From Candidatus Latescibacterota bacterium (GTDB taxonomy: Bacteria; Latescibacterota; UBA2968): DNA of 36,964 nt. This document shows positions 1 to 18,492 of the stretch, one piece after another. Every line of letters starts with the position of its first letter. Position 1 is the stretch's first letter. The stretch spans positions 1 to 36,964 of the forward strand of contig JAJEAX010000049.1 of NCBI GenBank assembly GCA_022822565.1, read 5' to 3'. The position numbers and the translations under genes were made by a program. The notes below the pieces were generated by a model that saw nothing but the letters and a program-made list of their open reading frames with translations, was not told the DNA's origin and made no database searches.

Positions 1-342
1 ATCGATCAACCAGTCCAAAATATCGGGATCGCGCACCAGCATATCAGCCATAAAAGGACTACTACCCAAAACGCACAACAACATGCGCCACAACTCGGGA
101 TACTCATTGAGCGTGTGCAAAAACGACGCGCGACCAGCCTGCACTATACGCACAAAATTATGCAGTGCCATATCGGGGTCGGGCGCATCGATCAACACCT
201 GAAAAAAATCGTCGGGAAGTTGACCATCAGCCTCTGAACCAGCCAATTCTTCGAGATTGTGCAACGCGCGTTCAACATCTCGAAATCCCGCCTGTGCAAG
301 CGCGTCTTTTGCATCGGGTGTGTCAAAATTAAAAATGTTCAT
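1..342 (-). CDS. glnE: Glutamine synthetase adenylyltransferase, N-terminal part (cut by window edge)
   Basis: Reading the minus strand from an ATG at 342 gives 114 codons with no stop, running off the window. The translation starts MNIFNFDTPDAKDAL and contains LLCVLGSSPFMADMLVRDPD, which matches the N-terminal part of the bifunctional glutamine synthetase adenylyltransferase/adenylyl-removing enzyme (the conserved Gly-Ser-Ser-x-x-x-Ala-Asp-x-Leu, Asp-Pro segment). This enzyme switches glutamine synthetase by adding or removing AMP at a tyrosine, in response to glutamine and PII. The gene for PII lies 93 bases upstream in the same direction, which supports the call. The catalytic nucleotidyltransferase domains are outside the window, so activity cannot be judged. 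Confidence 0.8.
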   Translation of the reverse strand, partial: MNIFNFDTPDAKDALAQAGFRDVERALHNLEELAGSEADGQLPDDFFQVLIDAPDPDMALHNFVRIVQAGRASFLHTLNEYPELWRMLLCVLGSSPFMADMLVRDPDILDWLID

Positions 343-361
343 AATGGATATCCAATACGAC

Positions 362-386
362 GGGCGAAAGATCTTTCGCCCCTACA
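362..386. repeat. Intergenic palindrome (REP-like), copy 1
   Basis: GGGCGAAAGATCTTTCGCCC is a perfect 20-base palindrome at 362-381, followed by CTACA. A second member with different arm sequence but the same GGGCGA...TCGCCC ends and the same trailing CTACA lies at 32052-32078. Both sit about 25-40 bases beyond a 32-base repeat that starts at a gene's stop codon. The element lies between glnB and glnE and could fold in their joint transcript. Confidence 0.7.
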
Positions 387-406
387 ATCATCTGCGTAAA
401 ACGCTC

Positions 407-435
407 ATCTGCGTTTATCTGCGTTCATCTGCGGA

Positions 436-438
<3 letters not shown>
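407..438 (-). repeat. 32-base repeat starting at the glnB stop codon, copy 1
   Basis: The plus-strand sequence is three near-copies of ATCTGCG(T/G) and is identical over 32 bases to 32111-32142. On the minus strand it begins with the TGA stop of glnB (436-438). The second copy begins in the same way with the TGA stop of the beta-helix gene. Related wording (GGATAAACGCAGATG) recurs at 785-826. Confidence 0.8.
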
Positions 439-826
<388 letters not shown>

Positions 827-868
827 AATACAATATATTCCGACAATCACATCTGTTCAAATGCGTTG

Positions 869-897
869 TTGACACCAAAGAAAAAAATCTCTATCCT
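869..897 (+). promoter_or_regulatory. Sigma-70-type promoter of the cupin gene
   Basis: TTGACA at 869-874 is a consensus -35 box. After a 17-base spacer TATCCT at 892-897 can serve as the -10 box. The expected leader is about 40 bases and ends in AAGGA before the ATG at 942. Confidence 0.6.
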
Positions 898-941
898 GTG
901 CCCATTGAAAACCATCACCAATACGCAAAAAAGGAAACGCT

Positions 942-1295
942 ATGCCTGTTACCAGACTATCGGAAACCACAGCCGAAGAATTTCCCTGGGGCACCCTCAA
1001 CTGGCTCATGGGCCAGGCCATTGATCCCGATGCCAAACAGACTTTTGGCCTGGCCGTCATCGAACCCGGTCAGCAGAATCCACCGCATTACCATCCCAAT
1101 TGCGAAGAAATCCTCTACGTCGTCTCCGGAACATGCGAACACACGTACGGTGACGACAGCTATCAGCTCAAACCGGGCGATAGCATTCGAGTTCCCGCTG
1201 GCGTAATCCACCACGCGATTAACAACGGCGATGAGCCACTGCGCGCAATCATCTCCTTTTCATCGGGTGACCGTCAAACCGTATTTCTCGAATAG
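942..1295 (+). CDS. Single-domain cupin protein
   Basis: This 117-residue protein is a complete small cupin (cupin_2 type beta-barrel). Both cupin motifs are visible: PPHYHPNCEEILYVVSG around residues 47-63 supplies the two histidines and the glutamate that bind a metal, and PGDSIRVPAGVIHHAINN around 78-95 supplies the third histidine. Such proteins range from sugar isomerases to dioxygenases and sensory domains, so the substrate is unknown. The ATG has an AAGGA ribosome site and its own promoter. The stop lies 7 bases before the start of the HAD phosphatase gene, so the two are almost surely co-transcribed. Confidence 0.85.
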   Translation: MPVTRLSETTAEEFPWGTLNWLMGQAIDPDAKQTFGLAVIEPGQQNPPHYHPNCEEILYVVSGTCEHTYGDDSYQLKPGDSIRVPAGVIHHAINNGDEPLRAIISFSSGDRQTVFLE

Positions 1296-1302
1296 GCGAA
1301 CC

Positions 1303-1872
1303 ATGACTATTCGCGCCATCATCTTCGACATGGACGGTACACTCACAGAATCGTACATCAACTGGCCGGAGTTGCGATCAAAAATCAATTGTCCGCCCGA
1401 AAAAACCATCATCGAACACATCGACAACTTACCCGCAAAACAACGCAAACAGGCCAATGACATCCTGCTCCAAAAAGAATGGGAAGCAGCACAACACGCC
1501 GCCATTCGCGCTGGTGCAACAGAACTCATCGACGCACTACGGGCGCGCAACTACAAACTCGGCCTGGTCACCAACAACCACGGCGCCGCTATGCACCGTG
1601 TGATCAACCGACTCAACCGCGCCTTTGACGTCGCCTTCAGCCGCGACGACGGTCCCATAAAGCCCAGCCCCTACCTCATCCACAAAACGCTCCAGACCCT
1701 CGGCAGTTCCCCAAACGAAGCCATAAGCATCGGCGATAGTCGCTACGACCTCATGGCCTCTGCTGCTGCCCGCGTGCGCTGTATTCACTTCACCGATGGC
1801 GCATCCGACCTCGCGCACGATCTCCAGGTCGCGTCACTATACGCCATCATACCGCTCCTGGACCAGCTTTAG
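1303..1872 (+). CDS. HAD-family phosphatase (phosphoglycolate phosphatase-like)
   Basis: The 189-residue protein belongs to the haloacid dehalogenase superfamily of aspartate-nucleophile phosphatases. Motif I is DMDGTL with Asp9 as nucleophile and Asp11 as acid/base; motif II is the threonine in GLVTNN; the motif III lysine is in KPSPYL; motif IV is GDSRYD. The helical insert between motifs I and II indicates a subclass I cap of the Gph/PgmB type. The open frame extends upstream to 1231, but the ATG at 1303 is preferred because it begins the domain directly and avoids overlap with the cupin gene. The last 26 bases overlap the convergent aminotransferase gene. The substrate is not predictable. 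Confidence 0.85.
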   Translation: MTIRAIIFDMDGTLTESYINWPELRSKINCPPEKTIIEHIDNLPAKQRKQANDILLQKEWEAAQHAAIRAGATELIDALRARNYKLGLVTNNHGAAMHRVINRLNRAFDVAFSRDDGPIKPSPYLIHKTLQTLGSSPNEAISIGDSRYDLMASAAARVRCIHFTDGASDLAHDLQVASLYAIIPLLDQL

Positions 1873-3040
1873 CTGACACCAATTTTTCTGCACACGTTCG
1901 GATGCGCGCCAACGCCTTTTCGATATTTTCCACAGAATTCGCGTAAGAAAACCGCAGATACCCCTCGCCGTATTCCCCAAAATCCGACCCCGCCAGACAC
2001 GCGACATGCCCCTCATTCAAAATCACATCCGCGACTTCTGAAGACAACTTACCCAATCCCGTGATATTTGGAAATGCGTAAAAAGCCCCCTCGGGCATCG
2101 GGCATGTAATCCCCTCAATCGCATTCAAACCCTCTACAATAATCGCACGCCGTTTGCGAAACGCATCCATCATGTCCGCAACTGCATCCTGTGGCCCCTT
2201 CAACGCCGCTACAGCCGCCATTTGCGTAAACGCAGCCGTACACGAATTGCTATTGACCATCAGCCGGTCAAAATGCGGCACGAGATCCATCGGCATCACA
2301 CCATATCCAATACGCCAGCCCGTCATCGCATACGTCTTGGAAAACCCATCGAGAATAATCAATAAATCGGCAATACCCTCACACGCAGAAATGCTGTGAA
2401 ACACATCGCCATAGGCCATTCGAGAATAAATTTCATCCGACAACACGGGAATCTGATGCTCGACCGCCACCTCGGCAATCGCCTTCAAATCACCTTCTGG
2501 AATCACGCCACCCGTGGGATTTTGCGGTGAATTTAGAATAATCAGCTTTGTGCGTTCCGTCACCAGATCGCGCAACTGATCCGTATTCAGGCTAAACCCG
2601 CGATCCTCCGTCAGGGGCACGGGCACGGGTTGAGCACCCGCAAAGCGAATCACCGACTCGTAAATCGGAAAACCCGGATTCGGATAAATCACCTCATCGC
2701 CCTGCTCTGCCAATGCGAGAATGGAATAAAACATAATCGGCTTGGCACCGGGTGTCACCACCACCTGATCGGGATGCACGTCAATCTGTCGCGTAGTCGA
2801 AATCTCTTCGGCTATTGCCTCGCGCAACTCGGGCAGTCCCACGGGCGGACCGTAATGCGTAAACCCATCGGACAGCGCTCGTTGTCCCGCCTCCACAATA
2901 TGCGCGGGTGTATCAAAATCTGGCTCACCAATCTCCAGATGAACCACATCGTGCCCCATCGCCTCCAGCGCACGCGCCTTCACCAACACCTCAAAAGCAG
3001 ACTCCGTACCCAACAGCGACATGCGATTAGCAATATTCAT
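1847..3040 (-). CDS. Class I/II PLP-dependent aminotransferase
   Basis: The 397-residue protein is full length for fold-type I aspartate-family aminotransferases (subgroup I-gamma, as in AspC/AATase Ib or alanine/aromatic transaminases). The N-terminal LEIGEPDFDTP, the cofactor asparagine in NSPQNPTGG, SDEIYSRMAY, and the Schiff-base Lys235 in DGFSKTYAMTGWR are all present, as is the carboxylate-binding arginine near the C-terminus (YLRFSYA). It acts in the cytoplasm, moving an amino group to 2-oxoglutarate or a similar acceptor. AAGGA precedes the ATG. The gene follows the 3060-3935 gene by 19 bases on the same strand and overlaps the HAD gene tail to tail. The amino-acid specificity is unknown. 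Confidence 0.9.
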   Translation of the reverse strand: MNIANRMSLLGTESAFEVLVKARALEAMGHDVVHLEIGEPDFDTPAHIVEAGQRALSDGFTHYGPPVGLPELREAIAEEISTTRQIDVHPDQVVVTPGAKPIMFYSILALAEQGDEVIYPNPGFPIYESVIRFAGAQPVPVPLTEDRGFSLNTDQLRDLVTERTKLIILNSPQNPTGGVIPEGDLKAIAEVAVEHQIPVLSDEIYSRMAYGDVFHSISACEGIADLLIILDGFSKTYAMTGWRIGYGVMPMDLVPHFDRLMVNSNSCTAAFTQMAAVAALKGPQDAVADMMDAFRKRRAIIVEGLNAIEGITCPMPEGAFYAFPNITGLGKLSSEVADVILNEGHVACLAGSDFGEYGEGYLRFSYANSVENIEKALARIRTCAEKLVSAKAGPGAV

Positions 3041-3059
3041 CGTAAAGTCCTTATGGAAT

Positions 3060-3935
3060 TCATTTGTTTAAAGCATTGTGTAGCTGAAACCTTCCCTCAG
3101 TCTTCAATAATCGCTCAAAAGCTGGGGCGTTATACCTGAAATGATTCCAATTGAGTTTCTCTGCGACTTTGCGATCTAGCTCGAACGCTCCGCCTTGGGC
3201 TTCCACAGGATGGCCATACTGATTTGTAAAGACAAAATAGGGACGAAGGCGAATGCGCTGCACTTCACTGCACGCGGGATCAGTGAACACTCTTTCCATA
3301 AATGAACCAGTGTGAACAATCAATAATTCACGCGTACTTTTAGAGGACCAAGACCCATCCTCTCTATAAGCCACATCGGCTGTGTAGCCTATGGAAATAC
3401 TGATGACCGAAGCAACCTTTTTTCCGTCCCTCCTGACTGTCTTGCCAAAGACGTGACGGCCATGCTTTTCCACTATACGCGCAAGTGTGCCTGGCTTTGT
3501 GGTATATCCCTCTTTCTCTTCTTCTTTCTGTTTTTCCAATGCTACCTTAGCTGAGTCAAGAAAGGCTTGTGTGCGAACCACAAGGCTACTGGCCTCATTG
3601 AGCAATTTTGCACTCTTTAGGGCACTGATCGCTTCATCGGCAGAGTCTATGGCGGTCTGGTAATTCTGAGAGTCGTATGCCGTACGCGCAGTTGAGAGTA
3701 ACTTTGTTCCTCTTTCAAACTGTTTTCGCGCTCGTTCCAATTTCACCTCATCTGGTTCCAACGCGGCTGATAGAATAACCGCTGCAATTGCTCCTACACC
3801 ATAGTAGAGGAGTACTCTCCCACGATTACGCTTCTCACCCCAGCGGATCACAAGCGATGGTCGAATCAGGCCAATGACCATTCCCATAAAGGCAATCAAA
3901 AAGAGTAGCACAAGGATTGTGTTGATTGTTTCCAT
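3060..3935 (-). CDS. Membrane-anchored protein with two N-terminal helices, function unknown
   Basis: The 291-residue product starts with a hydrophobic helix (about residues 5-25), then a basic stretch RPSLVIRWGEKRNRGR, and a second hydrophobic helix (about 42-60). Next comes a charged, helix-rich part (about 62-140) with TPR-like or coiled-coil character, and then a mixed soluble domain of about 140 residues. No family is recognised. The helical hairpin with the polar linker suggests a cytoplasmic-membrane protein with a soluble C-terminal domain. A GGGAGAG ribosome site supports the ATG. It lies in a run of minus-strand genes of unknown role (5490 to 3060) upstream of the aminotransferase gene. 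Confidence 0.7.
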   Translation of the reverse strand: METINTILVLLFLIAFMGMVIGLIRPSLVIRWGEKRNRGRVLLYYGVGAIAAVILSAALEPDEVKLERARKQFERGTKLLSTARTAYDSQNYQTAIDSADEAISALKSAKLLNEASSLVVRTQAFLDSAKVALEKQKEEEKEGYTTKPGTLARIVEKHGRHVFGKTVRRDGKKVASVISISIGYTADVAYREDGSWSSKSTRELLIVHTGSFMERVFTDPACSEVQRIRLRPYFVFTNQYGHPVEAQGGAFELDRKVAEKLNWNHFRYNAPAFERLLKTEGRFQLHNALNK

Positions 3936-4084
3936 AATCTCTCCCTCTATTCGGTAAGTTTTCGTCCCAAAGAGTCATTTACTTCATCTTGTATCTCGAT
4001 TTTGGTAATCATAGCGTTCAGCATCAGCGGTACGCGCAGCACTTTTTTTATATGTTGTTAGGTGTACTTGGGCCGGGCACACAT

Positions 4085-4900
4085 TTAGTTGTTGTTATAA
4101 CCATACTGACCTCGCGACAAGAGAGCCTCCTTCCAGTAGTTCTCACGTTCGATAATCACCGTATCGTCGATTCTGGCAGGATAGTACTCGAGTAGAGAAA
4201 TTCGAAAATATTGTCTCGCATAGTCAAGGCCCCGTTGAGCGATCAGAGTGGTCAACTCGTCATTCCAACCGTGGCCAGTTTCAACATAGCAACTCCATCG
4301 TGCCCACACACCTGCTCCTCCGTAAGCAGCACCGACGTACTTTCTTCCATTATTTTTGTCTATAATGAGGTAAACGCCCTTGACATTTTCAAGGGCAGCC
4401 CTCCAATCCGGACGATTATTCTGAAAAATTACCTCCAACTTATCGAAGTCGTGGCTGATGTTCTCGTAGCCAGGAAAACGCTCCCCGCTGTACGGTTCTC
4501 TGAGGAGTTCAGAAATGAACATTTCGTCTATCCATTCCTCCAATCTCAGGGAGTCTATTCTTGATGCTGTTGGAAAGCAAATTTTGAGACGCCCCACTAG
4601 ATCTTCGTAGTCGGGGACGCACTCAATCGTATAACTATGGGCATAATTCACAGGAGTTCTGGTGAGTACCTCGTAAATGCCACCGAATAGCCAGATATCG
4701 GGTTCTGGATAGAAGTCAATCAAGGCAAGGATATAGGGCCTATTGAATCTATCATTGTATTTACGCCAAGTGTTCCATTCATCCCACTCTCCTCTGTCTC
4801 GAACGAACACGTCCAGAGGCTCATCAGTTCCATTATAGTAAGCAGTATGAACCTTATAGTCCTCTGGATTCAAGATTGGCAGCAGTCGTGAGAGGTTCAT
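4085..4900 (-). CDS. GIY-YIG nuclease-domain protein with uncharacterised N-terminal domain
   Basis: In this 271-residue protein the last 100 or so residues form a GIY-YIG nuclease domain. GVYLI stands for the GIY element, KYVGAA for YIG, an arginine follows on the next helix (VWARW), the catalytic glutamate is in IIERENYWKEAL, and a closing asparagine is in YGYNNN. The first 165 residues form a separate domain, recalled from standalone GIY-YIG proteins of this layout, with Tyr/Trp/Asp-rich strands. Related enzymes nick or cut DNA in repair, homing or restriction; a role for this subtype is not established. No methyltransferase lies nearby, so a restriction system is not supported. AAGGAG precedes the ATG. 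Confidence 0.8.
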   Translation of the reverse strand: MNLSRLLPILNPEDYKVHTAYYNGTDEPLDVFVRDRGEWDEWNTWRKYNDRFNRPYILALIDFYPEPDIWLFGGIYEVLTRTPVNYAHSYTIECVPDYEDLVGRLKICFPTASRIDSLRLEEWIDEMFISELLREPYSGERFPGYENISHDFDKLEVIFQNNRPDWRAALENVKGVYLIIDKNNGRKYVGAAYGGAGVWARWSCYVETGHGWNDELTTLIAQRGLDYARQYFRISLLEYYPARIDDTVIIERENYWKEALLSRGQYGYNNN

Positions 4901-4926
4901 CTTTACTTCTCCTTTCTTGTTTCTTT

Positions 4927-5490
4927 TTATTTAACGTCCAATTCCAAAGAAGCCATAAATTCCGCTCCACTCGCGTATATTCCTTCCTTGCTTGGAGGGA
5001 CTGCCCCGTCGTTAATTAGAACGAGCCAGCGAATTTCCTGAAAAAATGTAACGAGAGATTTGAATAGTTCGTCCAGGCGTTCCAATTCTTCAAAAACCTC
5101 GGCACCATGTGTTTTTTTACCCCCGCTCTGCTGCAAAGCGTCCCGAATATCGCGCAACACTTTTCTCTCATTGATGAAATATGCCTCTCCTTTTTCCAGA
5201 GCAGGCACCCCAATATCATCGGGATCCATTTCTTGGCCCGGCGGAAAATTTTTAGCGGCTTTCAAAAGCCGATCAGGAAAGGTGGCAATGATAGCAGCCT
5301 GAGCATTGTACCGTTCCCGAAAGCTATCGGTTAATGCCTGTATCACCCTTTTATTTAGATTTTTGTGCAGATTTACCAGTGTATTTTCGCGTAGCACTTC
5401 TGGTTGTTCCAGAGGTTGCGCTCCCCAGACTAATGCGCCGGTGACATCGCGCACCGCTTCACCGCTAAATCCAGAGACTTGTTGAGTCAT
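4927..5490 (-). CDS. Uncharacterised soluble protein
   Basis: No family is recognised in this 187-residue protein. It is hydrophilic and mostly helical, without signal peptide or membrane segment; the middle (about residues 60-150) is rich in Glu, Arg and Lys and could form a coiled coil. Two in-frame ATGs compete, at 5499 and 5490. The second is chosen because AAAGGA lies 9 bases upstream of it, whereas the first has that site directly abutting. It is the first gene of the minus-strand set that includes the GIY-YIG protein, 26 bases away, so the two are likely co-transcribed and may work together. Confidence 0.65.
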   Translation of the reverse strand: MTQQVSGFSGEAVRDVTGALVWGAQPLEQPEVLRENTLVNLHKNLNKRVIQALTDSFRERYNAQAAIIATFPDRLLKAAKNFPPGQEMDPDDIGVPALEKGEAYFINERKVLRDIRDALQQSGGKKTHGAEVFEELERLDELFKSLVTFFQEIRWLVLINDGAVPPSKEGIYASGAEFMASLELDVK

Positions 5491-5497
5491 CTTGATC

Positions 5498-5531
5498 ATC
5501 CTTTCATCCTGAAAATCCTGATTCAGACAAA
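5498..5531. repeat. Short degenerate tandem repeat upstream of the 4927-5490 gene
   Basis: ATCCT occurs three times in the plus-strand sequence (ATCCTTTC, ATCCTGAAA, ATCCTGATTC), and the first unit supplies the ribosome site of the minus-strand gene. It may be a dispersed intergenic repeat; only one copy is seen in this window. Confidence 0.35.
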
Positions 5532-5556
5532 GGTTTCACCGCTAAATGCTGACCAC

Positions 5557-6120
5557 TTATTTAATAACAATTGCGTGTGCAACTTCGGGACCGTGAACAC
5601 CCAGCGTCAGCCGCATTTCAATATCTGCGGTACGGCTCGGTCCAGAAATAAAAGTCGCCGTTGCATTTTCGGGATGATCCAGATAAAATTGGCGCAACGG
5701 CGCGGCGGCATCCTTCAAATTCTCCAGCAACGTACTCGCCTTAAAAATGCCGATATGTACCCGGGGCAATGTCGAAACGAGACGCACGGCATCGTCCAAG
5801 GCAAACTCGACGAGACTACCCGACTCAGCCACGGCAAAAACCGCCCAGGACACCCCCACCTCGGCAGCATCAATCGCGTGGGGCAACTCGGAACTGTCAA
5901 AGGGGGGCATACCCACATCAATTCCCGCATCCACACACGCGCGTTCAATAGCATCGTCCAACCCATCGGGCAACTCGGCAAACACAGCCCGCTTACAATC
6001 CACCTCCCTGAGCACACTGACCACAATGGGCGCAACTGCATCAGCATCCTCAGCCACATGTGCGACACCGGACAGCGACGCGTACTTTTCGACAAAAGCA
6101 TCGATCAATTCATCACTCAT
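5557..6120 (-). CDS. LUD-domain protein, LutC/YkgG-like
   Basis: The 187-residue product matches the LutC side of the LUD family, a partner of the iron-sulfur proteins LutA and LutB in L-lactate oxidation to pyruvate. The typical core is visible: VSWAVFAVAESGSLV, then RLVSTLPRVHIGIF, then FISGPSRTADIEM followed by GVHGPE. The family fold is related to ribose-5-phosphate isomerase-like enzymes and binds no obvious cofactor alone. No lutA or lutB neighbours are seen, so this is either a solitary copy or part of a complex encoded elsewhere. The name lutC is withheld for that reason. No RBS stronger than a weak purine run is seen. Confidence 0.85.
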   Translation of the reverse strand: MSDELIDAFVEKYASLSGVAHVAEDADAVAPIVVSVLREVDCKRAVFAELPDGLDDAIERACVDAGIDVGMPPFDSSELPHAIDAAEVGVSWAVFAVAESGSLVEFALDDAVRLVSTLPRVHIGIFKASTLLENLKDAAAPLRQFYLDHPENATATFISGPSRTADIEMRLTLGVHGPEVAHAIVIK

Positions 6121-6275
6121 AATCCACCTATCAATAGAAGTTTAAAAGACATTCAAATTAACGCGAAATACCTTTTGGCGCAAGTAAAAGCCCCTACTTT
6201 ACCCTTTACCCTTTGCACTCTGCTCTTTATCTTATCCCCATTCCACACACTATCCATTGTTCACTGGAAACTATT

Positions 6276-7274
6276 ATGCATTCTCCAATACGCATTGCAC
6301 AAATTGGCCTTGGGCCACTCGGCCAGATGCTCACTCCTTATCTGGTAAAACGATCGGGCATTGAAATCGTCAGTGCCGTTGACATCGACCCATCCAAAAC
6401 AGATCGCGACCTGGGCGAAGTGAGCCAATGCGACCAACCCCTCGGCATAGCCATCACCGACGATCTCGACAGGGGATTGACAGACACAGATCTCGCCGTA
6501 GTGACAACCGTATCAGAACTCCAACGCATCGCCCCCACATTAAAAGAAATTATCGACCGGGGCGTCAACATCGTCTCAACCTGTGAAGAACTGTCTTATC
6601 CCTGGACAACACAACCCGAATTATCCGCAACCATCGACACCTGGGCAAAAGAACGCGAAGTCTCAGTTCTCGGAACCGGCATCAACCCCGGTTTTCTCAT
6701 GGACTTCTTGCCCACAGCGGCCACGGGCGTATGTCACACCGTACATTCCATTCGCATAGAACGCATCCAGGATGCCTCCGCGCGCCGTCTCCCCTTTCAG
6801 CAAAAAATAGGTGCTGGCCTCACCGTTGAAGAATTCCAGAGCCTCGTCGCCCAACAAAAAATCCGCCACGTCGGCCTCACCGAATCCATGCACATGATCG
6901 CCGCGCGATTGGGGTGGCAACTCGACCACACCGAAGACATCGTAGAACCCGTTCTCGCAGAACCGGGGCGTTGTGCAGGCGTATTGCAAACGGGACGGGG
7001 ATACCACAACGGACGGGAAGTCCTCACCCTCATCTTCAAAGCCGCCGTCGGACAACTCATACACAATGGCGAATCAATCGAATCCCAGGAACGCATCCAG
7101 ATCAATGGCATGCCCGCTTATGACCTCATCATACCCGGTGGCATCAACGGCGACATCGCCACCTGTGCGGTCATCGCCAATGCCATCCCAATAGTCGCAT
7201 CTGCTGCGCCCGGACTGCGCACCATGATTGACATCCCCCCACTCTCCTGCGCGCAAGAAATCCCTGAGGGATAG
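6276..7274 (+). CDS. NAD(P)-dependent dehydrogenase of the 2,4-diaminopentanoate dehydrogenase/DapB-like type
   Basis: The product has 332 residues. The N-terminus IRIAQIGLGPLGQMLTPYL is a Rossmann nucleotide-binding turn (Gly-x-Gly-x-x-Gly), followed by the acidic end of the second strand in SAVDIDPSK. The following GRDLGEV-like wording (DRDLGEVS) and the later VLGTGINPGFLMDFLP are typical of the family around 2,4-diaminopentanoate dehydrogenase (ornithine fermentation) and dihydrodipicolinate reductase N-domains. Many genomes carry such homologues without the ornithine pathway, so the substrate is open. The frame opens at 6213, but the ATG at 6276 places the Rossmann motif at the usual distance from the start. 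The stop codon abuts the glgB start, so the two are translationally linked. Confidence 0.8.
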   Translation: MHSPIRIAQIGLGPLGQMLTPYLVKRSGIEIVSAVDIDPSKTDRDLGEVSQCDQPLGIAITDDLDRGLTDTDLAVVTTVSELQRIAPTLKEIIDRGVNIVSTCEELSYPWTTQPELSATIDTWAKEREVSVLGTGINPGFLMDFLPTAATGVCHTVHSIRIERIQDASARRLPFQQKIGAGLTVEEFQSLVAQQKIRHVGLTESMHMIAARLGWQLDHTEDIVEPVLAEPGRCAGVLQTGRGYHNGREVLTLIFKAAVGQLIHNGESIESQERIQINGMPAYDLIIPGGINGDIATCAVIANAIPIVASAAPGLRTMIDIPPLSCAQEIPEG

Positions 7275-9155
7275 ATGCCCCCTATTCTAAGCGATTTTGA
7301 CCTGCACCTGCACAGCGAAGGCAATCACCATCACATCTACGACTGCCTCGGTGCACACCCCACAGAAAAAGGCGTGCATTTTGCCGTATGGGCACCCAAC
7401 GCCCAGCGCGTAAGCGTGGTTGGCGACTTCAACGCCTGGAACGGATGCCAGCACCCCATGCAAAACAGAGGCAACGCGGGTATATGGGAACTATTCGTCC
7501 CCGACCTGACGCCCGGCACCCTCTACAAATACGAAATCAAAGCTCAAAACGGCGATATCTTTACCAAAAGCGATCCCTACGCCTTCTATATGGAACACCG
7601 CCCGCGCACAGCCTCCGTCGTGTACCAGCCCGACGACGCCCTGTGGACCGATACCGATTGGCTGCAAACCCGCCGGAAAAGAGACCCGTACACAGAACCC
7701 ATCGCCATATACGAAGTACACCTCGGGTCCTGGCGGCGCAACCCGGATGAAGATAACCGATCACTCACCTATCGCGAACTCGCGCATGAACTCGTCGAAT
7801 ACGTCCTCGAAATGGGCTATACCCACATCGAACTCCTCCCCATCATGGAACACCCCTTAGACGAATCCTGGGGATATCAGGTCACGGGCTATTACGCGCC
7901 AACCAGCCGATTTGGCACGCCAGATGACTTCAAATATCTCGTCAATCATTGCCACATCCACGGCATTGGCGTCATTCTCGATTGGGTACCCGCACACTTC
8001 CCAACAGACGCGCATGGACTCGCACAATTTGACGGCTCAACCCTGTACGAACACGCCGACCCTCGGCAAGGAACACACCCCGACTGGGGCACTCTAATTT
8101 TCAATTACGGACGCAATGAAGTACGCAACTTTCTGATCGCCAATGCCCTCTTCTGGATCGAAAAATATCACATCGACGGACTGCGCGTCGATGCAGTTGC
8201 ATCCATGCTCTACCTCGACTATTCGCGCAAAGAAGGCGAATGGATCCCCAACCAGTATGGCGGCAGAGAAAATTTAGACGCCATCGCCTTTATGCATCAA
8301 CTCAACACCCTGATCCACGAAAAGTTCCCAGGCGTCTTAATGATCGCCGAAGAATCGACCTCCTGGCCCGGCGTCTCCCGCCCCGTCTATCTGGGCGGCC
8401 TCGGCTTTGGATTCAAATGGAACATGGGCTGGATGAACGACACCCTATCCTATATCTCTAAAGAACCGATCCACCGCAAATACCACCACGACAACCTCAC
8501 CTTTGGCCTCGTCTATGCCTTCCACGAAAACTTCATCCTCGTACTCTCCCACGACGAAGTCGTCCACGGCAAACGCGCCCTCATCGACAAAATGCCCGGC
8601 GACCGCTGGCAAAAATTTGCGAATCTGCGCGCCTTTTACGCTTTTCAATACGCCCATCCCGGCAAAAAGTTGCTCTTTATGGGCGGTGAGTTCGGCCACT
8701 GGCAAGAATGGAACTCACAGGAAAGCATGCACTGGCACCTGCTCTCAGAACCCGATCACGCGGGCCTGAAGCGCTTTGTAAGAGACCTCAACACCCTCTA
8801 TCGGGGAGAACCTGCACTCTACGAACAGGACTTTGATCCCGAAGGCTTCGAATGGATCTCGCTCCACGACGCCTCAAACAGCGTCCTATCCTTCCTGCGC
8901 CGCGCGCGATCACACGATGCCCCTTTGATCTTTGCCTGCAACTTTACCCCCGTCCCAAGAGAAAACTACCGCATCGGCGTACCCACCCCGGGCACCTACC
9001 GCGAACTCATCAACAGCGACGCCAAACGCTATGGCGGCAGCAACATGGGCAACCTCGGCACCGTTCACACCGAACCTATCGCGAGCCACGGTCATCCGCA
9101 ATCCCTGCAAATCACCCTCCCCCCACTTGCTGCTGTCATGTTTAAGCCCGAGTAA
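7275..9155 (+). CDS. glgB: 1,4-alpha-glucan branching enzyme
   Basis: The 626-residue protein is a GH13 branching enzyme making the alpha-1,6 branches of glycogen in the cytoplasm. An N-terminal CBM48-type domain (about residues 30-115; [20 protein letters not shown]) precedes the TIM barrel. Conserved barrel elements are visible: ELLPIMEHP, the nucleophile Asp306 in GLRVDAV, the acid/base Glu359 in MIAEES, and Asp427 in [18 protein letters not shown] is characteristic of branching enzymes rather than amylases. A C-terminal beta domain follows. The start lies directly after the stop of the upstream dehydrogenase gene with GAGGG just before. No other glg genes are in the window. Confidence 0.95.
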
Positions 9156-9181
9156 AATCCCTTAAAAAAAGAGATTTTTTT

Positions 9182-12565: not shown

Positions 12566-12758
12566 CATTTTCAATGCCATAAAAGAGAAGATTTAGACTT
12601 CAAAGAGCAGCATCAAACACGGGTTTGAAACCAGGTCCTGAACGCCTCACTTAGAGAATTTGCCGGGCGAATCCCTCAACAGCCCGGCCCAGGGCGATAG
12701 ATGGGATTTTAAGCATACTTCTGTCGCCCTTCTCTTCTACCCCATTTTCAATGCCATA
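12566..12758 (+). repeat. Pair of 16-base direct repeats (12566-12581 and 12743-12758)
   Basis: CATTTTCAATGCCATA occurs at both positions, 177 bases apart. The first copy begins at the predicted sigma-54 transcription start. The unit bounded by the repeats contains the two stable hairpins described for the leader. Confidence 0.8.
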
Positions 12759-12858
12759 TCAGTGCATTTCACTTCTTCAAGTATGCGCGTGTGGCTTTAT
12801 CAGTAGATCCACCAACATCGCGTGTGAGCCGGAAACAAGTATCTAAAGGGAGGTATCT
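12582..12858 (+). ncRNA. Structured 5' leader or small RNA of the sigma-54 transcript
   Basis: No convincing ORF lies in the roughly 290 bases between the promoter and the first gene. Two strong hairpins follow one another: GCCGGGC / GCCCGGC (12662-12668, 12682-12688) and AGGGCGATAG / CTGTCGCCCT (12691-12700, 12721-12730, one G-U pair). A small GGTTTGAAACC palindrome precedes them. The pyrimidine run after the second hairpin (TCTCTTCTACCCC) is a weak termination signal. This may be a regulatory leader, an attenuator or a separate sRNA. I could not match it to a known riboswitch class. Confidence 0.4.
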
Positions 12859-13989
12859 ATGTGGAACCGTATTATCATAACCATTTGTTCGGTGTTTGTG
12901 TTGACAGGTCCAGCATCGTCTGGCGACATGACCCACATCCCGGACAGGGACTTCGATAAGCTCGCCTACGGAAACAAAAATCCTACAGGAATCTGGTCGG
13001 ATGGGACGACCATGTGGGTGGCAGACAGGAGCGCTAAGATTTATGCTTACAACCTGAGAACCAAGGCCCGTGATTCAGGTAGGGACTTCAATACACTGAA
13101 AGCCGCAGGAAACGAATCCCCTGCAGGGATCTGGTCGGATGGAACGACTATGTGGGTGGTGGACTTTCCTGACGCTAAAATTTATGCCTACAACATGAGG
13201 ACCAGAGCACGGGACCAGGAAAAGGACTTCGAACTCGCCTCAGGAAATAGAGTTCCTGAAGGAATCTGGTCGGATGGGACAACCATGTGGGTGAAGGAAA
13301 GCTCTTTCGATTTCGATAAGATTTATGCCTACAATATGAGATCTAAAGCCCATGATCCGAACAAGGACTTCAATACGCTGAGTGCCGCCGGAACACAAGA
13401 CACTGACGGGATCTGGTCGGACGGAACGACCATGTGGGTAGCAGACGGCTATCGGCATAAGATTTATGCCTACAACATGAGATCCAAAGCTCGTGACCGG
13501 AACAAGGACTTCGATCTCGCCATGGGAAACACCCGCCCCACAGGGATCTGGTCGGATGGAACGATTATGTGGGTGGCAGACTACGGGGGCCACATTTATG
13601 CCTACGGAGGTCAGGTCGGCAGTAGTGATCAAGCCATCCAGGACTTTTCGATGAAAATTAAGGGATCTACGGGGACCTTGAAAATTTGCGTGCGGGACCA
13701 CGAGTGCGAAGATGGGGATAAGATCAGCGTTGATGTAGATGGCAGGACCATATTTTTCGGAGAAATTGACAACGACTGGGACTGCTACAATCTGACGGTC
13801 TGGTCAGGCGAGAGCTATGCAGTGGAATTGACAGCCATCAACGGCACGGGATACAAGGGGGACTGTAGCTACAGAGACGAAAACACGGGCGAGATCCGCG
13901 TTACTGGGGAGAATACGGAAACGCAGGTCTGGCGTCATCGTGGAGGAGCCGGATCGAAGGCGCGCATCATCGTCGAAAGAGCCTGGTGA
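12859..13989 (+). CDS. Exported beta-propeller repeat protein
   Basis: The 376-residue product starts with a Sec signal peptide (MWNRIIITICSVFVLTGPASSG, cleavage near residue 22). About five to six repeats of 45 residues follow, each with GIWSDGTTMWVAD, KIYAYNM and (K/R)ARD..KDF, which look like blades of a propeller; residues about 255-376 form a separate beta-rich domain with four cysteines. Its role is unknown; repeat proteins of this form usually bind ligands or surfaces. It is the first gene behind the sigma-54 promoter, with a GGGAGG ribosome site before the ATG, and is followed by two SUMF1-domain genes on the same strand with a 33-base gap. The high similarity among repeats implies recent internal duplication. 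Confidence 0.85.
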   Translation: MWNRIIITICSVFVLTGPASSGDMTHIPDRDFDKLAYGNKNPTGIWSDGTTMWVADRSAKIYAYNLRTKARDSGRDFNTLKAAGNESPAGIWSDGTTMWVVDFPDAKIYAYNMRTRARDQEKDFELASGNRVPEGIWSDGTTMWVKESSFDFDKIYAYNMRSKAHDPNKDFNTLSAAGTQDTDGIWSDGTTMWVADGYRHKIYAYNMRSKARDRNKDFDLAMGNTRPTGIWSDGTIMWVADYGGHIYAYGGQVGSSDQAIQDFSMKIKGSTGTLKICVRDHECEDGDKISVDVDGRTIFFGEIDNDWDCYNLTVWSGESYAVELTAINGTGYKGDCSYRDENTGEIRVTGENTETQVWRHRGGAGSKARIIVERAW

Positions 13990-14022
13990 ATAAAGCAGGT
14001 CAAATGATGAAAGGAGAAACAG

Positions 14023-14853
14023 ATGTATCGTCCCAGTATTTGTATAGGCGTATTGATTCTTGTGAGCCTTCCTCTATGGTCACAACAGAACACCGGGAAT
14101 AGTGCGCCTTCACCCGGAGAGACTTTTCAAGATTGTGATGAATGTCCAAAGATGGTGGTTGTGCCATCGGGAGCGTTCAGGATGGGATCACCCGCGCGTG
14201 AGAGGGGTCCTTCTGATGAAAGGCCGCTGCATAGGGTGCGTATAGATTACCGGTTTGCGGTGGGTGTATATGAGGTGACCTTTGCCGAATGGTATGCCTG
14301 TATGGATGCAGGAGGTTGTGGAAACCATCTTCCGGATATTCCAGATGATAGCTGGGACCGCGAGAATCGTCCTGTGATCAATGTGAGTTGGAACGATGCC
14401 CAGTCTTATGTTAGTTGGTTGTCTGCCCGGACGGGTAACTCGTATCGTTTATTAAGTGAAGCGGAATGGGAATATGTGGCGCGCGCAGGTACGGAGACAG
14501 CATATAGCTGGGGGGACAGCATAGGTGTCAACCGTGCCAATTGCAGAGGTTGCGGCGGTGCCTGGGATGGTAAGGAACAGACGGTGCCTGTGGGATCATT
14601 CGCGGCGAATGCCTGGGGTGTTTACGATATGCACGGGAATGTGTGGGAGTGGGTTCAAGATTGCTATAATGGCAGCTATGAGGGCGCACCTGCTGATGGT
14701 TCTGCGTGGGAGTCTGAGGAGTGCGGTAGGCGCATCTGGCGTAGTGGTGCGTGGGACAGCGGACCGAGGGATCTGCGTTCGGCGCATCGCTACAGGAGCA
14801 CCCCCGGCTTCCTGTTCAGCAGCATCGGTTTTCGAGTTGCCCGATCTTTTTAG
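14023..14853 (+). CDS. Exported SUMF1/FGE-fold (C-type-lectin-like) protein, first tandem copy
   Basis: The protein has 276 residues with a signal peptide (MYRPSICIGVLILVSLPLWS). The rest is a formylglycine-generating-enzyme/SUMF1 domain: MVVVPSGAFRMGS, VYEVTFAEW, the conserved RPVINVSW, SYRLLSEAEWEYVARAG, AYSWGD, GVYDMHGNVWEWVQD and the closing GFRVAR. The active-site cysteine pair of true FGE is not evident, so sulfatase activation is unlikely; the fold is widely used for ligand binding and is a favoured scaffold of diversity-generating retroelements. Compared with the next copy, the last 40 residues differ sharply while the rest is closely similar. A GAAAGGAG ribosome site is present. It is probably part of the sigma-54-driven transcript. 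Confidence 0.9.
   Translation: MYRPSICIGVLILVSLPLWSQQNTGNSAPSPGETFQDCDECPKMVVVPSGAFRMGSPARERGPSDERPLHRVRIDYRFAVGVYEVTFAEWYACMDAGGCGNHLPDIPDDSWDRENRPVINVSWNDAQSYVSWLSARTGNSYRLLSEAEWEYVARAGTETAYSWGDSIGVNRANCRGCGGAWDGKEQTVPVGSFAANAWGVYDMHGNVWEWVQDCYNGSYEGAPADGSAWESEECGRRIWRSGAWDSGPRDLRSAHRYRSTPGFLFSSIGFRVARSF
14725..14841 (+). other. Candidate DGR variable region, copy 1
   Basis: Codons 14725-14826 align without gaps to 15772-15873 in the paralogue but only 11 of 34 residues agree (R, W, P, RSA, R, G, F framework). The next 15 bases (14827-14841, encoding GFRVA) are identical in both copies and have one A only, as expected at the homing end of a variable repeat. Conserved columns in the codons from 14740 on contain A at only three of 57 positions by my hand alignment. 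Confidence 0.55.
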
Positions 14854-14854
14854 C

Positions 14855-15064
14855 TCTTACGAATTGTCGAAAGATGATTATATGGACGGAAAGCAGGCTA
14901 AAGAGGCGTTTCGCCGCATGCTGTAGAGTTATCACAAAAAAGAGAAAGTATTCGTTAATAACGGGTTTGATATTCATCATTTGCGCGTGAATCCGAGCAG
15001 CATCCTGGACATCATCCGCAAACACAGTCCTGAAGCCTACGCTAAGATCATGGAAAAAAAATAA
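14855..15064 (+). pseudogene. C-terminal gene remnant with an in-frame TAG
   Basis: One frame reads through from 14855 to a TAA at 15062-15064 with a single interruption, TAG at 14924-14926. The sequence before it includes YMDGKQAKEAFRRML and after it FVNNGFDIHHLRVNPSS and ILDIIRKHSPEAYAKIMEKK, which look like real protein. No start with a ribosome site precedes it, and the parent family is not recognised. It lies between the two SUMF1 genes. It is either decayed or read with amber suppression, the latter having no support elsewhere in the window. Confidence 0.45.
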
Positions 15065-15081
15065 AGAAAGGAGATCTAAAG

Positions 15082-15900
15082 ATGTATCGTCACTGTATTT
15101 GTATAGGTGTATTCATTCTTCTGAGCCTTCCCCTCTGGTCCCAACAGGACAGTGGGGATAGTACGCCTTCACCTGGCGAGACATTTCAAGATTGTGATGA
15201 ATGCCCAAAGATGGTGGTCGTGCCATCGGGAAGGTTCACGATGGGATCTTCCATGGGTGAGGCGGGTCATCATGAACGTGAGAGACCGCTGCATAGGGTG
15301 CGTATAAATTACCGGTTTGCGGTGGGTGTATATGAGGTAACATTTGCCGAATGGTATGCTTGTCTGGATGCAGGAGGTTGTGGAAACCATATTCCGGATG
15401 ATATGCGCTGGGGCCGCGGGAATCGTCCCGTGATGAATGTGAGTTGGGACGATGCCCAGTCTTATGTGCGTTGGTTGTCTGCCCGGACGGGTAAATCATA
15501 CCGTTTATTGAGCGAATCGGAATGGGAGTATGTGGCGCGAGCAGGCACAGAGACAGCATATAGCTGGGGGGACAGCATCGGTGTCAACCGTGCCAATTGC
15601 TTGGGTTGCGGCGATCAGTGGGATAAGACTGCGCCTGTGGGATCATTCGCAGCCAATGCCTGGGGTGTTTACGATATGCACGGCAATGTGGGGGAGTGGG
15701 TACAGGACTGTTGGAATGACAGCTATGAGGGCGCACCTACAGACGGTTCTGCGCGGGATGAGGAGGAGTGCAACGATCGCGTGGTCCGTGGTGGTCCGTG
15801 GTACTTCACTCCGGAGTACGTGCGTTCTGCGTCTCGCAGCTTGAAGTCCTCCGGCTATCGGTTCCGCGGCCTCGGTTTTCGAGTTGCCCGGGATCTTTGA
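15082..15900 (+). CDS. Exported SUMF1/FGE-fold (C-type-lectin-like) protein, second tandem copy
   Basis: This 272-residue paralogue of the preceding protein has the same signal peptide type (MYRHCICIGVFILLSLPLWS) and the same ordered SUMF1 motifs, including SYRLLSESEWEYVARAG, AYSWGD, GVYDMHGNVGEWVQD and GFRVAR. Over the 118 or so residues before the variable segment I count roughly 20 differences between the copies, whereas 23 of 34 differ within it. AAAGGAG lies 8-10 bases before the ATG. The copy arose by tandem duplication; the remnant at 14855-15064 lies between. A ligand-binding surface or adhesion role is inferred from the fold and export signal only. Confidence 0.9.
   Translation: MYRHCICIGVFILLSLPLWSQQDSGDSTPSPGETFQDCDECPKMVVVPSGRFTMGSSMGEAGHHERERPLHRVRINYRFAVGVYEVTFAEWYACLDAGGCGNHIPDDMRWGRGNRPVMNVSWDDAQSYVRWLSARTGKSYRLLSESEWEYVARAGTETAYSWGDSIGVNRANCLGCGDQWDKTAPVGSFAANAWGVYDMHGNVGEWVQDCWNDSYEGAPTDGSARDEEECNDRVVRGGPWYFTPEYVRSASRSLKSSGYRFRGLGFRVARDL
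15772..15888 (+). other. Candidate DGR variable region, copy 2
   Basis: Partner of 14725-14841. Differences between the copies over the 34 codons fall at codon positions 1, 2 and 3 in the ratio 20:12:9, the reverse of what ordinary drift under protein constraint gives. The identical 15 bases after it lie at 15874-15888. Confidence 0.55.
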
Positions 15901-16324
15901 TCCTTTGGGCTTCACCTTTTTGTCCATTTTATAGGGAAGGAAGGGGGTGGTGTTTTTGGGGGTTACGATTTTTTTCGAGAGAGGTTTCATGTGATACGTT
16001 CGAGGAATTTTCCCCTTGAACATTCCTGTTATTGGATAGGATTTCAGGAGTTAGACTTTTGAATACCCATCAAATGCTCTGGCACGTCATAGTACTCTGT
16101 CGAGCCGCTATACACTTCATAGAGCAAGAAAATAATCACAAATGAATGACCTTGGCTTACCAAAGTCTGTGCTGAAATAGCTGGCCTCTTTGATTAAACC
16201 TTTAAGGATAGGCTATGTGGGTATAAGCTGGGGAATTCAATCAGTATAAAAACGGAAAGCCAGCGTATCGAACGCTTTTCGGAGCGCAGCATACGAACAA
16301 CATTCAAATACAAGGAGGATGGAG
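15901..16324. other. Intergenic stretch without a gene
   Basis: No ORF with coding character was found in these 424 bases. The only clear signal is AGGAGG at 16313-16318, the ribosome site of the next gene. TGGCACG at 16080-16086 lacks the TTGC partner and is not a sigma-54 promoter. No good terminator follows the second SUMF1 gene, so the sigma-54 transcript may continue. Confidence 0.5.
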
Positions 16325-17407: not shown

Positions 17408-17466
17408 CGGTGTGCCGTTTGACATTTAATGGGACAAGCTCTATCACAGTAAAGGAAGGTGCAGCG

Positions 17467-18492
17467 ATGAACAAGATATTATATATCCTGATTTTCTCAA
17501 CACTGCTATTTTCAAGCTCCGATGCACAACAGGGCGAGGTCGAATATGTTATCAAGCCGCAATTTGACGATGCTGAGGATTTTTCAGAGGGCCTGGCTAA
17601 AGTGAAAATTGGTGACAGATGGGGATTTATCAACAAGGAAGGACAATATGTTGCTAACCCCCAATTTGATATTGCCTGGTCTTTTTCAGAAGGCCTGGCT
17701 AAAGTGAAAATTGGTGACAAGTATGGGTATATCAACCAGAAAGGACGATATGTTATCAACCTGCTATTTGACGATGCTGAGGATTTTTCAGAGGGCCTGG
17801 CTAAAGTGAAAATTGGTGACAAGTATGGGTATATCAACAAGGAAGGACAAGTCGTTATCCAGCCGCAATTTGAATATAGCTTTTATTGTGGGGATTTTTC
17901 AGAAGGCTTGGCTTATGTATCCATTGATGGTGATGATGTGTATATCAACAAGGAAGGGCAGATTGTTATCCAGCCGCAATTTGAATATAGCTTTTATTGT
18001 GGGGATTTTTCAGAGGGCCTTGCTTGTGTGGAAAATGGAGACAATTATGGGTATATCAACAAAGAAGGGCAATTGGTTATCCAGCCCCAATTTGACGGAT
18101 CTCGAGGTTTTTCAGAAGGCCTGGCTCTTGTGAAAATTGGTGATAGGTATGGGTATATCAACGAGGAAGGACAATATGTTATCAATCCCCAATTTGACAA
18201 TGCCTGGTCTTTTTCAGAAGGTCTGGCCTGTGTGGGAATTGGCGACAAGTATGGGTATATCAACAAGGAAGGACAATATGTTGTTAATCCGCAATTTGAC
18301 AATGCTGGAATTCGTTTTTCAGAGGGCCTGGTTGATGTGAAAATTGGTGATAAGTGGGGGTATATCAATAAGGACGGACAAGTTGTCATCAAACCGCAAT
18401 TTGACTATGCTCGATTTTTTTCAGAAGGTCTGGCTGCTGTGAAAATTGGCGACAAGTATGGGTATATCAGTAAGGCGTCTTTTGAGAAATGA
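17467..18492 (+). CDS. Exported WG-repeat protein
   Basis: The 341-residue protein carries a signal peptide (MNKILYILIFSTLLFSSSDA) and then about nine WG repeats of 32-37 residues with the pattern FSEGLA.VKIGD.(W/Y)GYINKEGQ.VI.PQFD. WG (KWG) repeats are typical of exported or surface proteins of unknown ligand. The repeats are highly similar at the DNA level, pointing to recent expansion and possible copy-number change by slippage. The frame opens at 17410, but the ATG at 17467 begins the signal peptide and has AAGGAAGG upstream. The last 31 bases of the gene plus about 105 bases of flank recur at 21185-21293. Confidence 0.9.
   Translation: MNKILYILIFSTLLFSSSDAQQGEVEYVIKPQFDDAEDFSEGLAKVKIGDRWGFINKEGQYVANPQFDIAWSFSEGLAKVKIGDKYGYINQKGRYVINLLFDDAEDFSEGLAKVKIGDKYGYINKEGQVVIQPQFEYSFYCGDFSEGLAYVSIDGDDVYINKEGQIVIQPQFEYSFYCGDFSEGLACVENGDNYGYINKEGQLVIQPQFDGSRGFSEGLALVKIGDRYGYINEEGQYVINPQFDNAWSFSEGLACVGIGDKYGYINKEGQYVVNPQFDNAGIRFSEGLVDVKIGDKWGYINKDGQVVIKPQFDYARFFSEGLAAVKIGDKYGYISKASFEK

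Follow-up and report, generated by a model that had tools for sequence, protein, structure and literature searches.

The window analyzed here, a 36,964-nucleotide stretch covering contig JAJEAX010000049.1 of a “Candidatus Latescibacterota” bacterium (assembly GCA_022822565.1), contains two tandem paralogous genes, A and B, that encode proteins of the formylglycine-generating enzyme (FGE)-sulfatase fold. Sequence comparison largely supports the assignment of the last ∼38 codons of both genes as variable regions (VRs) of a diversity-generating retroelement (DGR). The reference for this assignment is an intact DGR in a congener, G008 (OY282377.1, uncultured Latescibacteria). We consider it likely that the 3′ ends of A and B were rewritten in the past by a DGR of the G008 type, and that the machinery has since been lost from the genome with the genes kept fixed. 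The features concerned are as follows.

14023 to 14853, forward strand: gene A, 276-aa FGE-sulfatase-fold protein, predicted DGR variable protein (PF03781, E = 4e-54)
15082 to 15900, forward strand: gene B, 272-aa paralogue of A, predicted DGR variable protein (PF03781, E = 2e-54)
14727 to 14843, forward strand: putative VR of A, with an ungapped alignment to columns 15 to 131 of the G008 template stretch (L069:8965-9120; DNA match, E = 2.4e-12)
15776 to 15890, forward strand: putative VR of B, with an ungapped alignment to columns 17 to 131 of the same stretch
14827 to 14843, forward strand: 3′ boundary of VR A, resembling an initiation of mutagenic homing (IMH) site; GGTTTTCGAGTTGCCCG, identical in the G008 template
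15874 to 15890, forward strand: IMH-like 3′ boundary of VR B, the same 17 bases as in VR A

Adenine-directed differences in the variable tract

Over positions 14725 to 14839, differences between A and B fall 20:12:9 on codon positions 1, 2, and 3, and the two proteins have only 11 residues in common over the first 34 codons. Within columns 14740 to 14826, 57 are conserved and 3 of these hold A, compared with an A share of 20.5% (122/596) in the conserved columns upstream of the tract (binomial P = 0.0013). All of these counts, including the high frequency of A ahead of the tract, reproduce those of the original prediction, which was made from the window alone and read the pair as candidate DGR targets. 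Overall divergence rises from 14.5% in the gene bodies to 36.5% in the tract, and the excess falls on codon positions 1 and 2. The tract ends in the block GGTTTTCGAGTTGCCCG, for which the chance expectation at ≤2 mismatches is 0.01; an identical block had been predicted at this place with a length of 15 bases, and its actual length is 17. A variable-tract-type excess at the same C-terminal place was not seen in two other FGE gene sets: in these genes of the same genome, the C-terminal tract is about as little diverged from congener orthologues as the body, except that, where body divergence is itself low, the tract exceeds it slightly, by a few columns.

Mismatches were then counted against the template of G008, which stands in for one from the window's own genome. 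VR A mismatches this template at 20/35 template-A columns versus 12/82 non-A columns (P = 5.7e-6), and VR B does so at 25/34 versus 17/81 (P = 1.6e-7). All three alternative bases occur at template-A columns in the window VRs, and 20/33 of these columns differ between A and B.

An intact DGR in a congener

G008 is a single-contig complete genome from the same genus as the window's genome. A search of 40 relatives with RVT_1 identified in it a reverse transcriptase (RT) that carries the DGR motif IGNLTSQ together with RYVDD and has 8ub7 as its best solved-structure match (E = 7e-41). Avd is encoded directly upstream (NF033474, E = 1e-30, above the cut-off), and the template region (TR), which would translate as RVLRGGSWNNKPRNLRSANRNRNTTENRNNNNGFRVAR, lies just 3′ of the RT. 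Eight closely matching G008 VRs differ from their own TR at 14 to 20 of 33 to 35 adenines and at 0 to 2 of 80 to 85 other columns, and 7 of the 8 are clustered around the RT. The targets adjoining the RT are long kinase-like proteins with the VR at their end; one that was scanned is a Ser/Thr kinase-FGE fusion. With RT, Avd, TR, and VRs whose mismatches are nearly confined to adenines, the element is complete, shows all the sequence hallmarks of a functional DGR, and was taken as our positive control. The existence of this RT and its A-rich template, the concentration of A and B mismatches on template adenines, and the identical IMH support the prediction of DGR targets. A hairpin is present 3′ of the TR in G008. 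A conserved hairpin just 3′ of the window VRs, as known from some DGRs, was sought and not found, and a short hairpin at gene B is unique to B.

A DGR also occurs in a member of another phylum, “Candidatus Binatia” (L230; OX638375.1), with an RT frame at 4271 to 5524 and a TR near 5346. Its RT shares 72% identity with the G008 RT, and its template peptide is nearly the same (RGGSWNNKPRNLRSANRNRNTAGNRNNNNGFRI); the sequence at the IMH place of this more distant element differs. Many of the relatives are metagenome-assembled genomes (MAGs) whose isolate names hint at sponge samples, and the DGR family may therefore spread between co-residing bacteria. A phage origin of the G008 RT was rejected: it has no relative among viral contigs, and the best phage RTs are only 34 to 38% identical. 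Its best plasmid matches are cyanobacterial RTs at ∼50% identity.

Probable loss of the machinery and apparent freezing of the targets

Contig C196, which makes up the window, belongs to a MAG of 4.6 Mb in 433 contigs with 91.5% completeness. In this assembly, we found no RVT_1 protein, no relative of the G008 DGR RT, and no Avd, and no sequence fits the degenerate template pattern at ≤3 mismatches. DNA searches of the assembly with VR A and the G008 TR returned only A, B, and short chance matches. One IMH-like match, on contig C338, proved on inspection to be unlike any VR or TR. Across the genus, an intact DGR RT was found in 1/10 congeners (G008), and VR-like genes are present in most congeners searched. 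In G007, another complete genome from this genus, the RT is truncated to a 148-aa frame, and a pattern search yielded no template. RT matches in G005 and G009, also of this genus, are readable in frame and carry a QG...SP motif, not the DGR motif. Based on the truncated G007 RT, the VR-like genes in most congeners, and the rarity of an intact RT, loss of the machinery with the targets kept is the best reading, and we infer such loss rather than an assembly gap in the window's genome.

Because each retrohoming event replaces the VR by a copy of the template, non-A columns of a live VR should stay identical while the rest of the gene diverges. This is the pattern in G008, where pairwise comparison of six targets gave bodies that differ by 6 to 15% and VR non-A columns that differ at 0 to 2/81; at third positions, the values are 0 to 1/34 for VR non-A columns versus 0.05 to 0.17 for the bodies. 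The VRs of G007 are intermediate (bodies, 19 to 38%; non-A columns, 6 to 16%). Between A and B, third positions differ at 7/34 VR non-A columns and at 40/191 body columns, both 0.21. The pair thus shows no recent homogenization and, judged from these comparisons, appears to be frozen and no longer undergoing diversification. Most simply, the gene would have been duplicated and each copy rewritten independently soon afterward, with no homing since. A tree of FGE bodies did not separate a duplication of A and B before the species split from one after it.

The strongest competing explanation, that a DGR in the unassembled part of the genome still diversifies the VRs in trans, appears unlikely. 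In its favor, the assembly lacks about 8% of the genome, and there are documented cases of remote variable proteins that a DGR targets in trans (PMC7517822, PMC10907252). However, active homing resets non-A columns, as it apparently does between the G008 VRs, yet A and B differ at 16/81 of them, and an intact DGR RT or TR is found in just one of the 10 congeners. The original prediction had proposed that the RT and template would be “remote or lost.” The parts are indeed missing from the assembly, and the divergence of non-A columns at the level of the gene bodies favors “lost” over “remote and active.” It had also named the lack of a DGR RT and an A-rich template from a whole genome as evidence against its reading. 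Such a lack was found for this incomplete assembly; because a template survives in the congener, the result speaks against current activity and leaves the DGR origin standing.

Some observations weigh against a past rewriting followed by loss. The MAG is fragmented into its 433 contigs and falls ∼1 Mb short of the size of most congener genomes; its missing part could thus contain an intact DGR. The missing homogenization of A and B could also mean that the last homing was from two different templates. In addition, 12 to 17 of the ∼82 non-A columns of the window VRs mismatch the congener TR.

Selection and recombination as alternatives

A different explanation invokes no retroelement at all, only positive selection on the ligand-contacting residues of two duplicated FGE proteins. 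The excess differences do lie mostly at codon positions 1 and 2, in the FGE/C-type-lectin part with which DGR proteins bind. Since template adenines also concentrate at these positions, we ran stricter tests. At codon positions 1 and 2 only, VR A mismatches the template at 17/29 A versus 5/47 non-A columns (P = 1.2e-5) and VR B at 22/29 versus 5/47 (P = 8.7e-9). When only codons with A at position 1 or 2 were counted, the values are 18/31 versus 2/20 for VR A (P = 5e-4) and 24/31 versus 7/20 for VR B (P = 3e-3). Mismatches therefore follow template adenines even inside positions 1 and 2 and inside the same codons, a contrast not expected from simple selection on surface residues. The 17-bp IMH shared by both window VRs and the G008 TR is identical at synonymous sites as well, and the homologous G008 VRs are clearly template derived. 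We regard selection alone as very improbable.

Least credible of all is a recombination patch, in which the 3′ end of one copy came from an FGE paralogue that is more distant: the locus has been remodeled (window positions 12592 to 15957, i.e., 12.6 to 15.9 kb, are ∼81% identical to congeners G001 and G003, versus 92 to 93% for the left flank, 1 to 9165), but A and B both agree with one and the same TR at the majority of non-A columns, third positions of the tract show no greater divergence than the bodies, and VR A gets only short chance matches elsewhere in the genome.

Under the favored explanation, rewriting by a since-lost DGR, an IMH-terminated template RNA would have been reverse transcribed with misincorporation at its adenines, and the cDNA would have replaced the last ∼38 codons of A and B; we infer this retrohoming step itself. 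Randomization would have affected chiefly positions 1 and 2 of AAY codons on a C-type-lectin surface of the FGE type, with third positions and framework codons unchanged. In keeping with most of the genus, the window's genome has probably lost its RT, Avd, and template, none of which is in the assembly. A and B would have persisted as fixed, probably secreted binding variants, with drift at an ordinary rate since.

Predicted products of genes A and B

Each protein has one FGE-sulfatase domain preceded by a hydrophobic N-terminal segment, which in the gene A protein is signal peptide-like. The AlphaFold model of the gene B protein (predicted local distance difference test score, 89) has structural matches to PvdO, FGEs, and the Treponema DGR variable protein TvpA (2y3c; template modeling score, 0.72). 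As expected of DGR targets, the variable regions lie near the 3′ end and within the C-type-lectin fold. Both proteins lack the active-site C-terminal cysteine pair of catalytic FGEs (as in SYLCHDSYC), and do not fit a catalytic formylglycine-generating enzyme; the pair is retained in an FGE paralogue on contig C415 of the same genome, one of the two FGE genes compared above with congener orthologues. Assignment as PvdO (dihydropyoverdine dehydrogenase) was also not supported, with scores of 218 and 229 bits falling below the NCBIfam NF051459 cut-off of 500 bits. We conclude that A and B are probably exported binding proteins whose predicted C-terminal lectin surface was randomized by a DGR and then fixed. 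Given the kinase-FGE fusions in G008, the FGE-type family may serve in sensing, in line with proposals for related systems of cyanobacteria and Thiohalocapsa (PMC7517822, PMC10907252).

Between A and B, at 14880 to 15064, is a degenerate small reading frame containing HHLRVNPSSILDIIRKHSPEAYAKIMEKK. It has no Pfam match and is perhaps a gene remnant.

Relation to known systems

TvpA of Treponema denticola and TaqVP of Thermus aquaticus belong to DGRs of their own genomes, unlike the window pair, which lies in an assembly with no detected RT or TR. Both are FGE-type C-type-lectin DGR variable proteins (PMC6328139). The remote DGR targets of cyanobacteria and Thiohalocapsa are, like A and B, paralogous C-type-lectin/FGE proteins encoded away from the RT, and they include Ser/Thr kinase-C-type-lectin fusions reminiscent of the G008 kinase-FGE target (PMC7517822, PMC10907252). 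The window pair differs from them in consisting of stand-alone FGE proteins with a signal peptide-like start and in having no RT in the assembly. RT-less DGR fragments of Nanoarchaeota likewise carry a VR signature without an RT and have been termed fossils or remote targets, the same two readings considered here (PMC4372165). Their target proteins are different, and in the present case an intact sister DGR allows activity and freezing to be compared through non-A divergence.

Earlier work has thus described, each in its own right, FGE-type DGR targets, remote targets, and RT-less “fossil” fragments, and the literature searched contained no DGR report for the window's lineage. The present case adds a sister element that is intact and a clear way to gauge inactivity: comparing how far non-adenine columns and the gene body have diverged provides a simple test for telling targets under continued rewriting from those frozen long ago. 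Two paralogues alone can suffice to recognize DGR targets. DGR surveys usually go by the RT, and targets that outlive it escape them; this single genus holds an intact DGR, a broken DGR, and orphan targets. The evidence leaves evenly balanced a broader diversify-then-freeze history, in which the genus would repeatedly lose one ancestral DGR, several species keep fixed orphan variants, and one species keeps a working machine.

The locus itself varies among congeners. At the syntenic position, G003 has one FGE gene, G001 (contig C186) has one with an internal stop, and G007 has only a 60-residue fragment. The flanking genes at 12859 to 13989 and 17410 to 18492 consist of internal repeats, one matching itself at a period of ∼135 bp and the other containing nine WG repeats (PF14903, E = 1e-107). 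A further FGE gene, L003 (G000:C159:14969-15658), has a VR-like C terminus (RVVRGGAWYLEGYFLRSPVRDQHRTFAGSLYVGFR) that is conserved in the congener orthologues L116, L117, L132, and L133 and is possibly an older frozen VR.
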